From Lysobacterales bacterium (GTDB taxonomy: Bacteria > Pseudomonadota > Gammaproteobacteria > Xanthomonadales > SZUA-5): a stretch of 45,622 nt of DNA. The stretch spans positions 1 through 45,622 of the forward strand of contig JALHMG010000043.1 in NCBI GenBank assembly GCA_022844135.1. The letters are read 5' to 3'. Position 1 is the first letter of the stretch. Every line of letters starts with the position of its first letter. Below, piece by piece: positions 4,911-8,870 of the stretch. A model generated the notes under the pieces. The model saw only the letters and a list, made by a program, of their open reading frames with translations, was not told where the DNA came from and did no database searches. The position numbers and the translations under genes are program-made.

Positions 4911-5324
4911 TCACGGCGAGTGCGTCAATCGCATCTGGTTGGATCGCTGTGTCTGCCACCACGGAAAGATAGCGAACGCGATCTGACCGGCCAGTCCCAG
5001 CCAATGCTCCGGTTTCGCATATGCACTGAGATGCCCGGCCAGCGTTCGATCCAGCAGCAGAAGCGAGATCGCGGCCTCGGCGAGCATCAATAGCGCGAAG
5101 GCGAACGCACCCATCGCGACAGCGCGCGCAGGAGTCTGCGGCCAGTGCCTCAGGATGCGCGAGCAGGCGAACCAGGAAATGCCCAGGATGATGGGCAATT
5201 CGATCAGCACCGCAATGAGCGGCCCGACCGCCGGCAAAAGCAGCAAGGTACGCAGCACGCCCAGCGCAAAGCCGGCGGCAAAAACGGCCGCGAAATACAG
5301 GGCGCCTGCGAGCATTGAGTTCAT
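4911..5324 (-). CDS. Small integral membrane protein
   Basis: A 137-residue hydrophobic protein with about four predicted transmembrane segments: LAGALYFAAVFAAGFALGV, LIAVLIELPIILGISWFA, AFALLMLAEAAISLLLL and a weaker one around LGLAGQIAFAIFPWW. It begins MNSMLAGALYF at 5324; the upstream in-frame extension to 5366 is histidine/arginine-rich and unlikely to be translated. Similar short proteins with a LRTLLLLPAVGP segment are annotated as conserved hypothetical membrane proteins in Proteobacteria. It sits between the M50-ClpS gene (65 bases upstream) and the kinase (115 bases downstream) on the same strand. No catalytic motif is visible. Confidence 0.75.
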   Translation of the reverse strand: MNSMLAGALYFAAVFAAGFALGVLRTLLLLPAVGPLIAVLIELPIILGISWFACSRILRHWPQTPARAVAMGAFAFALLMLAEAAISLLLLDRTLAGHLSAYAKPEHWLGLAGQIAFAIFPWWQTQRSNQMRLTHSP

Positions 5325-5389
5325 GGCGGCATCTGGCGTGCGACGATGGTGGCGATGATCGCGCAAACAGGCGCGAACCTGCCTGGTGA

Positions 5390-6253
5390 TCAGACATCTG
5401 CCAGTTCAACCGTCACGGCACGGCAAATCAACGGATAGCCTCTCGCTCGCGCAGCTTCCTCAATGCTTCTTGCCGCAGACTCGGCGTGGGCCTTCGTAGG
5501 CATAGGCATCATCAGGCCACCGCTCGTGTGGATCATCAGCACCATGCGGGTCGCGTCGGCCATGGGCAGCTGTAACTGCTCGATAAGCTGGGTGACTACA
5601 AACTCCATCGGCGTTGCAGGGTCGTCCAAGAACTCGATCCCGCTGAATCCCGGTGGCAGAGCCGGCCGCCGATACGGGGCAGTGGCACCCGGCGCGCCTG
5701 GCATCGAAAGGGGCAACTTACGCAGTGCTCGCCAAACCAAGCGCAAGAGTACATACCCATCGGACGCGACACTCGTGTGCCGCGGATCGATCGGCCACAG
5801 GTTCAGAACGATCAAGATAGCGTTGCCGTATATGAAGGTAGCAGCAATGTAGTTCAACCAAGGTTTATTGGCTTGATCGATTGTCGGCAGCGCCAAAAGC
5901 GTAACCACGAGAAGCAAACACTGCGCGATCAGCCCTGCCGCCGTCGTGACGATCGCCGCTGCGTACGTTGTTGGCAAATCGAATTCGCACTGGCCACCCG
6001 ATCCGTCGAGATTGATGGCGCGCACATGTAATCCGAAGCTTACCGCCGCCAGCGCATGCCCGGCTTCATGCAAACAGATCAAAAACAGATAGGCGCACCA
6101 GAACACGGCGGCGACCTCGATGTCGAATCTCGACCAGACGAAGAACAACGCCGCGCCGAACAAAATCGCCCAGTGAACGCGTATCGGTACCGAGCCAACC
6201 TGGAGCAGTTGAACTGCGCCTGGATACGGCGTTGGAGGTGGAAGATTCAACAT
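5390..6253 (-). CDS. M50-family membrane metalloprotease fused to a ClpS-like adaptor domain
   Basis: A 287-residue protein joining two families. Residues 1-185 are a polytopic site-2-protease-like (M50) domain. It has the zinc motif HEAGH (62-66) in a membrane segment and the second conserved site NLWPI...DG (151-155, 165-166), which normally supplies the third metal ligand. Residues about 205-285 match ClpS: LDDPATPMEFVV (209-220), ATRMVLMIH with the substrate-contact histidine at 242, and a C-terminal AESAARSIEEAARARGYPL. ClpS proteins bind N-terminal destabilising residues and deliver them to ClpAP. Here the E. coli Asn-Asp-Asp-Tyr-Thr-Pro-Met-Glu-Phe segment reads Asp-Asp-Pro-Ala-Thr-Pro-Met-Glu-Phe, so the adjacent Asp, Thr and Met survive but the Asn is Asp. 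Both halves keep their key residues. The function of the fusion is inferred: membrane-tethered recognition of N-degrons. No Shine-Dalgarno sequence is obvious before ATG 6253. Confidence 0.85.
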   Translation of the reverse strand: MLNLPPPTPYPGAVQLLQVGSVPIRVHWAILFGAALFFVWSRFDIEVAAVFWCAYLFLICLHEAGHALAAVSFGLHVRAINLDGSGGQCEFDLPTTYAAAIVTTAAGLIAQCLLLVVTLLALPTIDQANKPWLNYIAATFIYGNAILIVLNLWPIDPRHTSVASDGYVLLRLVWRALRKLPLSMPGAPGATAPYRRPALPPGFSGIEFLDDPATPMEFVVTQLIEQLQLPMADATRMVLMIHTSGGLMMPMPTKAHAESAARSIEEAARARGYPLICRAVTVELADV

Positions 6254-6307: not shown

Positions 6308-6781
6308 TCAATCGAGCAGTACGAGGCCGCTATTGCGCTTCTCGGGCGCCAAGAATTGCCGCGGCTGTACGTGCGGCTCGCCAACGAGCGTTTGGGTAAA
6401 GTCTGGTGCCGCAAACTCCAGCAAGCCCTGCGGCCAGCTGATCGGGATTTTCCACCGCCAGGAACGATGGCCGTTCGGCCGAACCAACTCCGCGCGCTCA
6501 ATGCCCGTCATCATGAATGGGGACATCCCAGCGGTGGGCGTTGCGTAGTCGAGTTGGAGCTTCAATTCAGAAGCGCCGTGAAAACGAAGTACGGCCTGAC
6601 AAACGGTGAAAAGAAAGCCCGTTCCGGATGGCTGCCACCCGAGGACGAAATCGATATCCATCACCAGATCCGCACAGCCTTCGTCCTCGTTGAAGTGAAC
6701 CAGACGAAACCCATGGACATGCGCGTCATGCCAGCACAGCGCGTCAAAATCTTCGGTGCCCCAGCGCCTTCCGTTGATCAT
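6308..6781 (-). CDS. Conserved hypothetical protein
   Basis: A 157-residue protein starting MINGRRWGTEDFDALCWHDAH. It has ordered aromatic and acidic blocks such as HGFRLVHFNEDEG, LVMDIDFVLGW, GMSPFMMTGIERAEL and WRWKIPISWPQG. I recognise this pattern from short uncharacterised bacterial proteins but know no function. The frame remains open to a GTG at 6862, but that codon lies inside a terminator-like hairpin of the preceding gene, so the ATG at 6781 is preferred. It is first in a minus-strand series with the M50-ClpS gene 54 bases downstream. No signal peptide or membrane segment is seen, so it is probably cytoplasmic. Confidence 0.7.
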   Translation of the reverse strand: MINGRRWGTEDFDALCWHDAHVHGFRLVHFNEDEGCADLVMDIDFVLGWQPSGTGFLFTVCQAVLRFHGASELKLQLDYATPTAGMSPFMMTGIERAELVRPNGHRSWRWKIPISWPQGLLEFAAPDFTQTLVGEPHVQPRQFLAPEKRNSGLVLLD

Positions 6782-6840
6782 TGGCCACCAAGAACGACAG
6801 TGTGCGGCATGCGCGAAGATTGAGCAGACCTCGCGCAGAA

Positions 6841-6865
6841 GGGGTGGTTGTTTGCCAACCACCCC
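6841..6865 (-). terminator. Hairpin after the acyl-CoA reductase gene
   Basis: Perfect 10-base arms GGGGTGGTTG (6841-6850) and CAACCACCCC (6856-6865) surround a five-base loop. It lies 14 bases past the reductase stop codon. On the minus strand only a short TTCT follows the stem, so it is a weak or imperfect intrinsic terminator. Confidence 0.6.
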
Positions 6866-6878
6866 TGATCGGGAGCCG

Positions 6879-8870
6879 CTACCAATGAATCCCGCGCATC
6901 ATCGAAGCAAACGCGACCTGCTCGCTCGACGGCGGTGCTTCCTGTCCTGGCTTCACGCCCTTCGCTGCCGCGGAATCCGGGAATAGCTGGAACGCGGTGT
7001 TGAGCACCACCTGATACACCTTGGGTGCCAGCAAGTGCAGGATTTCGGCAAAGATGCCGACGCGCGTGGCGATGCGTTGCGGGCGCTCGATGACCGCGCG
7101 CACCACCAGATCGGCGGCGTCTTCCGGCGTCAGCGTGGGCACGTTGTCGTACATCTTCGTCGGCCCGATCATCGGCGTGCGCACCAGCGGCATGTTGATG
7201 ATGGTGAAGTGGATGTTGCGATCGGAGAACTCGCTCGCCGCGCAGCGGCTGAACGCATCCAGCGCGGCCTTGCTCGCCACGTATGCGGAAAAGCGCGGTG
7301 CGTTCGACAGCACGCCGATGGAGCTGATGTTGATGATGTGGCCTTTCTTGCGCTCGCTCATGCCCGGCAGGAAGCCCATGATCAGGCGCAGCGAGCCGAA
7401 ATAGTTGAGCTGCATGGTGCGCTCGAAATCGTGGAATCGATCGTAGGAGAGCGCGATCGAACGACGGATGGAGCGGCCGGCGTTATTGACCAGAATGTCG
7501 ACGTGACCATGCTCGGCGAGCACTTTGGCGACCAGCGCGTCGGCCGACGCGAGATCTGCGAGATCCGCTTGATACACGAACACTTCGGCGCCAGGCGTTG
7601 CCGCTTCGATCTCGGCCTTGGCTTTCTCCAGGTCCTCCACGCCGCGCGCGCATATCAGCGTCTTGGCGCCGGCGGCCGCCATCTTGTGCGCGCTCGCCAG
7701 ACCAATGCCGCTCGAACCACCGGTGATCAGCACCACCTTGCCCTTGACCTTGCTCGACAGCGTGCGGTCGATGAAGAGCTCGGGATCGAGGTGACGCTCC
7801 CAGTAATCCCACAACCGCCACGCGTAGCCCGCTAAGTCCGGCACCTTGATCCCGGTGCCGCGCAACACCCGTTCGGTTTCGCGGCAATCGAAGCGCGTCG
7901 GGTAGTTGAAGAATTTCATCATGTCGGGCGGAATGTTCAACGACTTGAACAAGTGCTGCGTGATGCGTCGAACCGGCGGCAGCGCGCCGACCATGTTGCG
8001 GATGGAGCTCGGGATGACCTGGAAGATGCGCGCGTCGATGCGCATCGTCATCTCCGGCGCGTGGCCGGCGTTCGCGAACAGGTTCAGCACCTCGCCGACG
8101 CGCCGCGGCGCCGGATCGGTCAGATGGAAGCACTGCCCGTCGAGACCCTTTTCGTGGGCAATGTGATCCATCGCGTCGCAGATGAAATCCACCGGCACGA
8201 TGTTGATGCGCCCGCCTTCGAAACCCAATACCGGCATCCATGGCGGCAGAGTTTCGCGCAGCTTCTTGAGCAGCGTGAAGAAATAGTACGGACCATCGAT
8301 CTTGTCGATCTCGCCGGTCTTCGAATGTCCGACGACGATCGCCGGGCGATAAACGCGCCAGGGCCGTTTGCATTCTTTGCGCACGATGCCTTCGGAATCG
8401 TGTTTGGTGCGGAAGTACGGGTGATCCAGGCCCTCGGCTTCATCGAACATGTCCTCGCGGAACACGCCGCCGTACAGGCCCGCAGCGGCAATCGAGCTGA
8501 CATGATGGAAGCAGCCCACGCGCAACAAATCGCCCAGTTGCACCGCATTACGCGTGCCATCGATGTTGGCCGCTTGCTGCGATTCGGCGCTGGCGGCCAG
8601 GTCGTAGATCGCCGCGAGGTGGAAGAAGTGTTTGATCTTGCCCTTGAGCGCCGCTTGCGCCTCGGCGGTCAAACCGAGCAGCGGTTTGGTCAGGTCGCCG
8701 GTGACAGCCTGCAAACGATCGCCGGCTTCCGGGTAGCGATCTTTCAGCGCCTCGAACTTTTCTTTCGATCCGCGCCGCACGAGTACGTAGATCGTGCCCT
8801 TGCGCTTCAGCAAATTGCCGATCAGGAAGCGGCCAATAAATCCTGTGGCACCGGTGATGAAATAACTCAT
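6879..8870 (-). CDS. Two-domain fatty acyl-CoA reductase (SDR family)
   Basis: A 663-residue protein with two Rossmann domains, the architecture and length of Marinobacter-type fatty acyl-CoA reductases that convert acyl-CoA to fatty alcohol for wax esters. The N-terminal extended-SDR domain starts TGATGFIG (6-13) and includes a male-sterility-type reductase region (YFRTKHDSEGIV, VDFICDAMDHIA). The C-terminal classical SDR domain starts at about 377 with VLITGGSSGIG, then has NNAG, the catalytic serine region INISSIG and YVASK. A GGGAG ribosome site precedes ATG 8870. An acyl-CoA-binding protein is transcribed divergently, followed by a TetR regulator, supporting a role in acyl-CoA metabolism. 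No wax ester synthase is present in the window. Other long-chain acyl reductase activities cannot be excluded. Confidence 0.88.
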   Translation of the reverse strand: MSYFITGATGFIGRFLIGNLLKRKGTIYVLVRRGSKEKFEALKDRYPEAGDRLQAVTGDLTKPLLGLTAEAQAALKGKIKHFFHLAAIYDLAASAESQQAANIDGTRNAVQLGDLLRVGCFHHVSSIAAAGLYGGVFREDMFDEAEGLDHPYFRTKHDSEGIVRKECKRPWRVYRPAIVVGHSKTGEIDKIDGPYYFFTLLKKLRETLPPWMPVLGFEGGRINIVPVDFICDAMDHIAHEKGLDGQCFHLTDPAPRRVGEVLNLFANAGHAPEMTMRIDARIFQVIPSSIRNMVGALPPVRRITQHLFKSLNIPPDMMKFFNYPTRFDCRETERVLRGTGIKVPDLAGYAWRLWDYWERHLDPELFIDRTLSSKVKGKVVLITGGSSGIGLASAHKMAAAGAKTLICARGVEDLEKAKAEIEAATPGAEVFVYQADLADLASADALVAKVLAEHGHVDILVNNAGRSIRRSIALSYDRFHDFERTMQLNYFGSLRLIMGFLPGMSERKKGHIINISSIGVLSNAPRFSAYVASKAALDAFSRCAASEFSDRNIHFTIINMPLVRTPMIGPTKMYDNVPTLTPEDAADLVVRAVIERPQRIATRVGIFAEILHLLAPKVYQVVLNTAFQLFPDSAAAKGVKPGQEAPPSSEQVAFASMMRGIHW

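Follow-up and report, generated by a model that had tools for sequence, protein, structure and literature searches.

A small M50B membrane protease fused to a ClpS-fold domain in a single Lysobacterales genome

Introduction

What would a domain of the ClpS fold be doing at the end of a membrane protease? ClpS is the N-degron adaptor of ClpAP and recognizes the N-terminal residue of proteins destined for degradation. Known N-degron receptors pass their substrates to AAA+ proteases, to ubiquitin ligases, or to autophagy. The choice of substrates by site-2 proteases (S2Ps) is poorly understood, and a fusion of the two kinds of domain in a single chain makes that question testable. Here, we analyze such a fusion, encoded by a Lysobacterales bacterium (GenBank assembly GCA_022844135.1). 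The window referred to throughout is the whole stretch of DNA analyzed, positions 1 to 45,622 (45,622 nucleotides) of contig JALHMG010000043.1.

Results

One reading frame encodes both domains

A sequence-only reading of the window had described one 287-residue protein combining an M50 metalloprotease with a ClpS-like domain. This was borne out by the open reading frame (Table 1) and by matches above the Pfam cut-offs for both halves, ClpS (PF02617) at residues 209-277 (E 2.5e-11, 43.6 bits against a cut-off of 23) and Peptidase_M50B at residues 34-134 (E 7.7e-8, 32.7 bits against a cut-off of 26). The motifs that it had named, HEAGH, NLWPI...DG (residues 151-166), TPMEF (residues 214-218), and the histidine at 242, stand at the positions it had given. 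Residues 196-278 align without gaps to residues 20-102 of E. coli ClpS (phmmer), so that the two prolines preceding the ClpS core are matched as well. The plus strand of 5390-6253 is interrupted by stops in the identical register. The GC content by codon position follows a like pattern in the protease and ClpS domains, and the Pro/Ala-rich segment at 181-205 deviates from it. The possibility that two neighbouring genes had been joined by a frameshift or sequencing error was considered and rejected; in the loci read, with flanks of roughly 1.5-5 kb, no relative of the protease has an adjoining ClpS gene, which makes an artefactual joining unlikely. The fusion of an M50B protease and a ClpS domain is genuine.

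Table 1. Features of the fusion gene and its neighbours in the window
Feature	Position	Strand	Basis
M50B-ClpS fusion gene, 287 aa	5390..6253	minus	ATG to stop
M50B site-2-type protease domain, residues 12-179	5717..6220	minus	Pfam, AlphaFold2 model, fold matches
HEAGH, residues 62-66, zinc/catalytic motif	6056..6070	minus	Sequence
NLWPIDPRHTSVASDG, residues 151-166, N-x-x-P ... DG motif	5756..5803	minus	Sequence, alignment
Pro/Ala/Arg-rich flexible linker, residues 180-199	5657..5716	minus	pLDDT <50 at 183-191
ClpS-fold domain, residues 200-283	5405..5656	minus	Pfam, fold matches
DDPATPM, residues 210-216 (NDDYTPM, 34-40, of E. coli ClpS)	5606..5626	minus	Gapless alignment
His242 (His66 of E. 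coli ClpS)	5528..5530	minus	Gapless alignment
Ser/Thr kinase with TPR repeats, 909 aa	2087..4816	minus	Pfam
Small membrane protein, 151 aa (137 from second likely start)	4911..5366	minus	No Pfam or NCBIfam family
184-aa ORF	6308..6862	minus	No Pfam, NCBIfam, or PHROG family
Two-domain reductase (SDR gene), 663 aa, NAD_binding_4 and short-chain dehydrogenase	6879..8870	minus	Pfam

An AlphaFold2 model of the fusion, built from 31 sequences (the fusion, 11 M50B relatives, and 19 ClpS), had a mean pLDDT of 84.2 and a pTM of 0.64, with both domains well modelled. Since both ClpS and M50B sequences went into the input alignment, the two folds were not discovered independently by the model, but it is consistent with the profile matches obtained for both domains from the single sequence. 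The relative placing of the two domains is left aside in view of the pTM. Structure prediction of the C-terminal part, which the sequence-only reading had called ClpS-like, gave a complete ClpS fold (residues 200-283). In comparisons with Foldseek and VIA-align, this half matched Caulobacter ClpS (3dnj_A) with a TM-score of 0.92 by target length and an rmsd of 1.1, and E. coli ClpS (3o2b_C) with a Z of 13.9 and an rmsd of 1.2 over 81 aligned residues. An L7/L12-type origin of this half was rejected, as L7/L12 entries scored at Z about 7-8 against 13-14 for ClpS. The protease half matched MjS2P (3b4r_B; Z 15.4, rmsd 4.5, 158 aligned) and SpoIVFB (8vjl_A; Z 12.7, rmsd 3.6, 144 aligned).

The protease half belongs to a subfamily with variable tails

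In the model, the protease domain comprises four membrane-type helices (29-40, 45-72, 97-124, and 132-152) followed by a helix at 165-179, and the HEAGH motif lies inside helix 45-72. The M50B core fold and the placement of HExxH in the second helix are shared with MjS2P (3b4r) and SpoIVFB (8vjl/8vjm), whereas the insertion before the DG motif and the four predicted membrane helices, in place of the six of the SpoIVFB/MjS2P core, set the fusion apart from both. Asn151, Pro154, and Asp165-Gly166 are present, with about six residues inserted in the alignment between Pro157 and Asp165-Gly166; if the DG segment is aligned without gaps, His159 falls where Asp165 would stand. Within the catalytic half, certainty is lowest for the loop at residues 159-163, which has a pLDDT below 50, and this insertion and poor modelling before the presumed third zinc ligand, Asp165, leave protease activity less than certain.

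The protease half has its closest relatives among M50B proteins of small size (about 180-240 residues where the start is clear) from Myxococcota (L053, L054, and L056), Steroidobacter agaridevorans (L055), and a Pseudomonadales MAG (L058), along with L057, and it belongs to a small M50B subfamily that occurs in Myxococcota and, in scattered fashion, in Proteobacteria. In a seven-member alignment of this subfamily, Pro23, His27, His62, Glu63, Gly65, His66, and Ala67 are invariant in the N-terminal part, as are Gly87, Cys89, Gly107, Gln111, Asn144, Asn151, and Pro154 further on. The relatives read (L053-L058, L112-L116, L140-L153, and L155-L158) have in common with the fusion the four helices, a GxC after HExxH, and Gln111, at a position where the usual residue is Asn. 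At the C-terminus, they carry either a charged tail or a linker and short helix, and none carries ClpS; an Arg/Lys-rich stretch follows the last helix or the DG motif, with a linker and, judged by eye, a short helix in addition in many. Under the positive-inside rule, positively charged flanks of membrane helices are cytosolic, and these tails thus suggest that the C-terminus is cytosolic. In the fusion, the ClpS domain stands in place of this charged tail.

Two gene arrangements were noted among the relatives, the partner ORF being recognized by eye in both. At L113 (G1060), the small M50B gene lies ~430 bases upstream of an ECF-sigma-like ORF on the same strand, possibly a regulated-proteolysis pair, and at L112 and L114, from two related genomes, it adjoins a convergent penicillin-binding protein 1C-like ORF.

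The ClpS pocket and ClpA contacts are partly kept

Compared with E. coli ClpS, the fusion keeps Asp35, Thr38, Met40, Val43, His66, and Leu99 (as Asp211, Thr214, Met216, Val219, His242, and Leu275, respectively), with Asn34 changed to Asp, Asp36 to Pro, Met62 to Val, Val65 to Ile, and Leu32 to Phe; Cys73-Gly74 is replaced by Met-Pro. One of the three ligands of the alpha-amino group (Asn34, Asp36, and His66, corresponding to Asp210, Pro212, and His242) is kept, the histidine, and so is one of the three ClpA contacts (Glu79, Glu82, and Lys84, corresponding to Ala255, Glu258, and Ala260), Glu82; the roles of the pocket residues and of these contacts are those given in an extract of PMC12493166. 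The N-terminal extension of ClpS, which according to an extract of PMC9663308 engages the ClpA pore, is here the linker to the membrane domain and is not free. Conservation was scored from E. coli residue 28 onward, against E. coli ClpS and 33 distinct ClpS domains from the fetched loci. By this measure, the fusion keeps 20 of the 37 columns conserved at 90% or more, 6 of 11 in the pocket and 14 of 26 elsewhere (Fisher p = 1), in a comparison from which divergent ClpS are left out and in which conservation at certain positions holds by construction, since the 33 were selected by a pattern fixing TPM[DE]F, Thr59, Met62, Val/Ile65, and His66. On these figures, the pocket is not preferentially conserved. 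Against the NCBIfam ClpS equivalogs, the fusion scored 39.8 bits at best and did not reach the cut-off of 112.

In the fusion, Asp-Asp-Pro stands for the Asn-Asp-Asp of E. coli ClpS, as it does in M. tuberculosis ClpS (Trp33, Asp34, Asp35, Pro36, and His66 in a table of PMC6274998), and M. smegmatis ClpS structures bear entry titles naming the bound dipeptides Phe-Ala and Trp-Ser (9ayo and 9b1p); this replacement therefore need not abolish N-degron binding. Mycobacterial ClpS (9ayn, 9ayo, and 9b1p) is, however, 17% identical to the ClpS domain of the fusion over the aligned fold and is free-standing, with ClpC1 as its partner. With the E. coli and Caulobacter proteins, the fusion has in common the fold, TPMEFV, the gatekeeper Met, and the equivalents of His66 and Leu99, but it differs in being tied to a membrane protease and in its changes at Asn34, Asp36, Met62, Glu79, and Lys84. 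Leptospira ClpS1 is also devoid of Lys84, and LinClpS isoforms inhibit the LinClpA ATPase (extract of PMC12493166), so that the loss of Lys84 counts as evidence but is not decisive. Recognition of N-terminal residues, as first proposed for this protein, is thus favoured by the retention of Asp211, Thr214, Met216, His242, and Leu275 and disfavoured by the loss of two of the three alpha-amino ligands and the lack of preference for the pocket.

The fusion was found in one genome

The search for the same fusion in other genomes that the sequence-only reading had proposed was run on overlapping sets and brought no second instance. Among the matches listed, no other M50-ClpS fusion was present in 200 relatives (E 1e-3), 369 genomes of the class (1e-8), 398 genomes of the phylum (1e-9), 96 genomes of one Myxococcota order (1e-8), or 5 genomes reached through loci; the sets of 200, 369, and 398 include the genome of the fusion itself. 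Plasmids and phages held no match to the fusion at 1e-5, nor did a single-protein scan of genome contigs, and a scan of genome contigs with a three-sequence M50 alignment returned at least 41 loci, with no ClpS in the 41 listed. The M50 part alone matched in at least 9 of the 369 class genomes, own genome included. An M50 profile (A3) run on 398 genomes of the order at 1e-6 matched in 35, of which 7 score as the small subfamily (the genome of the fusion and six others, including G022), and no ClpS was found in the 29 other loci from this search. These searches could overlook a fusion whose protease half has diverged strongly. G001, the one same-genus genome examined, has a ClpS match only and is without the fusion.

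In the Myxococcota order around L053, the M50 part matched in 29 of the 96 genomes, and the C-terminus was read in 15 of these (including G1135, the source of L053). The matches in the remaining 14, and those to second copies in G1179 and G1141, end by residue 179. One candidate, G1201, aligns to residues 12-271 of the query; it was rejected because its tail consists of a linker and a short helix and gave no ClpS match. Nine ordinary ClpS reading frames contain an HExxH string, and these were likewise set aside as N-terminal His/Glu runs rather than HExGH. Among the genomes examined, the fusion is found in one only.

The genome appears to encode an N-degron pathway, and the regions read show no conserved module

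The genome of the fusion also encodes an ordinary ClpS (on C30), which scores 114.2 bits against 46.5 for the fusion and to which the ClpS domain of the fusion is about 33-35% identical. By eye, a ClpA-like ORF lies 3' of this gene on the same strand (L109 7899-10178), and Aat is present at 224.9 bits; the fusion therefore adds to an apparently complete N-degron pathway.

The neighbouring kinase and small membrane protein had suggested a membrane stress module, but the relatives give no support for one. The SDR gene was matched in all nine relatives searched (98% identical in the same-genus genome) and has ACBP and TetR genes beside it in five of the six read, G001 being the exception. Near the SDR gene in these six, neither the fusion nor the 184-aa ORF nor the small membrane protein has a match; kinase matches occur there in four, and at 29-33% identity they look like paralogues. 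Relatives of the small membrane protein are present in 6 of 60 other genomes searched, and none of them adjoins a fusion relative in the four regions fetched. The L174 region has a kinase relative on the same strand about 4.4 kb past the small membrane protein relative, beyond a long ORF. With no such grouping in the six SDR regions or the four membrane-protein regions, a conserved stress operon is rejected, and because the neighbours stand apart from fusion relatives in the regions read, the fact that these genes sit side by side in the window says little in favour of a module. Eight neighbouring ORFs scanned with Pfam included no anti-sigma factor or other usual S2P substrate, and PADLOC, run on four proteins for a defence association, matched the kinase alone, to kinase models.

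Near the start of the contig, the first 105 codons of an ORF on the plus strand (811-1125 of the window) match the C-terminal end of PilB/GspE-type ATPases, with a type_IV_pilB score of 75.3 bits, far below the cut-off. The overlapping ORF at 336-875 has no NCBIfam match, and this is perhaps a truncated or frameshifted gene.

Discussion

The sequence-only reading knew of no described system of this kind, and none appeared in the titles and abstracts listed in our search of open-licence PMC papers. Within that literature, the fusion is an S2P with an accessory domain apparently undescribed for S2Ps; in one archaeon, S2P homologues carry CBS, PDZ, or no extra domain (extract of PMC9263693). The fusion itself comes from one genome, but it draws attention to a small M50B subfamily in which the tail is what varies. 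Among characterized S2Ps, SpoIVFB of Bacillus subtilis is an M50B protease with a C-terminal, cytosolic CBS domain, so that an accessory domain follows the core in both proteins, CBS there and ClpS here. RseP-type S2Ps also combine an intramembrane metalloprotease with a recognition (PDZ) domain, but their fold scores are lower (Z about 8-10), and their PDZ domains lie on the opposite side of the membrane from the location proposed here for ClpS.

The reading that we favour, tentatively, is that the ClpS domain serves as the cytosolic substrate-recognition or gating domain of its own site-2-type protease, a proposal for which we infer the topology, the catalytic activity, the binding of N-termini, and the kind of substrate. 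With a four-helix core, the C-terminus would come to lie on the cytosolic side, and the ClpS domain would then hang on its flexible linker of 20 residues next to the cytosolic opening of the active site, placed where SpoIVFB carries its CBS domain. S2P substrates usually have their N-terminus in the cytosol, and the domain could bind the exposed N-terminus of such a membrane protein, perhaps made bulky and hydrophobic by trimming or through the action of the Aat transferase, and keep the bound substrate in place for cleavage within the membrane. As cleavage of S2P substrates such as RsgI sets an N-terminal fragment free in the cytosol (extract of PMC12203970), the substrate N-terminus is where the ClpS domain could look. 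The loss of Glu79 and Lys84, together with the tied N-terminal extension, argues for a domain that works for its own protease and not for ClpA. Against this reading stand the single known sequence, a pocket that is not preferentially retained, the changes at Asn34, Asp36, and Met62, the insertion before Asp165, and the lack of a usual S2P substrate among the eight neighbouring ORFs scanned. More doubtful is the further step to N-degron-guided intramembrane proteolysis, in which the identity of the N-terminal residue would decide membrane cleavage without an AAA+ unfoldase. If true, it would bring the N-degron pathway together with regulated intramembrane proteolysis on a single polypeptide chain.

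The state of the pocket also suits a different role, less probable in our view than recognition or gating, in which the ClpS fold has ceased to read N-termini and serves in regulation or partner binding, for example by binding an internal peptide, or a segment of the protease itself as a plug, comparable to the CBS domains that regulate other M50B proteases. The changes at Asn34, Asp36, and Met62, a pocket that is not preferentially retained, Met-Pro in place of Cys73-Gly74, and the shortfall against the NCBIfam equivalog cut-off would all be accounted for in this way, but the gatekeeper Met, the His, the Leu99 equivalent, and TPMEFV are kept, and mycobacterial ClpS of the DDP type has been solved with dipeptides.

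Two further readings rank below these, and we regard both as improbable to the same degree. The domain could be a membrane dock that recruits ClpAP, passing fragments released by the protease straight to degradation. S2P products can indeed be finished by Clp proteases, ClpXP in the case of RsgI fragments (extract of PMC12203970), and the Glu82 equivalent and the ClpA-like ORF in the genome fit such a dock, which the sequence-only reading had also raised, but the idea is left weak by the change of the Glu79 and Lys84 contacts to Ala, of which the Lys84 loss alone is not decisive, and by an N-terminal extension that is tied to a membrane protein rather than free to engage the ClpA pore. Alternatively, the fusion may simply be lineage specific and possibly non-functional, a duplicated or acquired ClpS joined to a protease with a decaying active site, which would explain its presence in one genome, its absence from the same-genus G001, and the insertion next to Asp165. 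However, the frame is open, the codon-position GC pattern is alike in both domains, if not in the linker, and HEAGH, Asn151, Pro154, and Asp165-Gly166 are kept; at about 33-35% identity to the genome's own ClpS, the frame has probably been open for long, unless the domain was acquired already diverged. A recognition or gating role for the ClpS domain remains the reading that we place first.

ClpS-type domains occur in other unusual settings, including L12/ClpS-type insertions in vWA proteins of Bacteroidetes (extract of PMC7159879) and a ClpS gene that shares its operon with a ubiquitin-like system (extract of PMC1779556). In our searches, a Myxococcota protein of up to 297 aa (L154/L159; G1173:C115:39910-40788, minus strand) with an N-terminal hydrophobic stretch, seen by eye, combined a Clp N-domain (PF02861; 24.8 bits, cut-off 20.7) with a C-terminal ClpS domain (41.4 bits), so that an adaptor is fused to a copy of the domain on which it docks; the protein is perhaps tied to the membrane. 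A search of 92 genomes with this Clp_N-ClpS protein matched its residues 85-282 in two near-identical 267-aa proteins ending in a ClpS-type domain with NDPFTTME (L160, G1179:C688; L162, G1141:C17).
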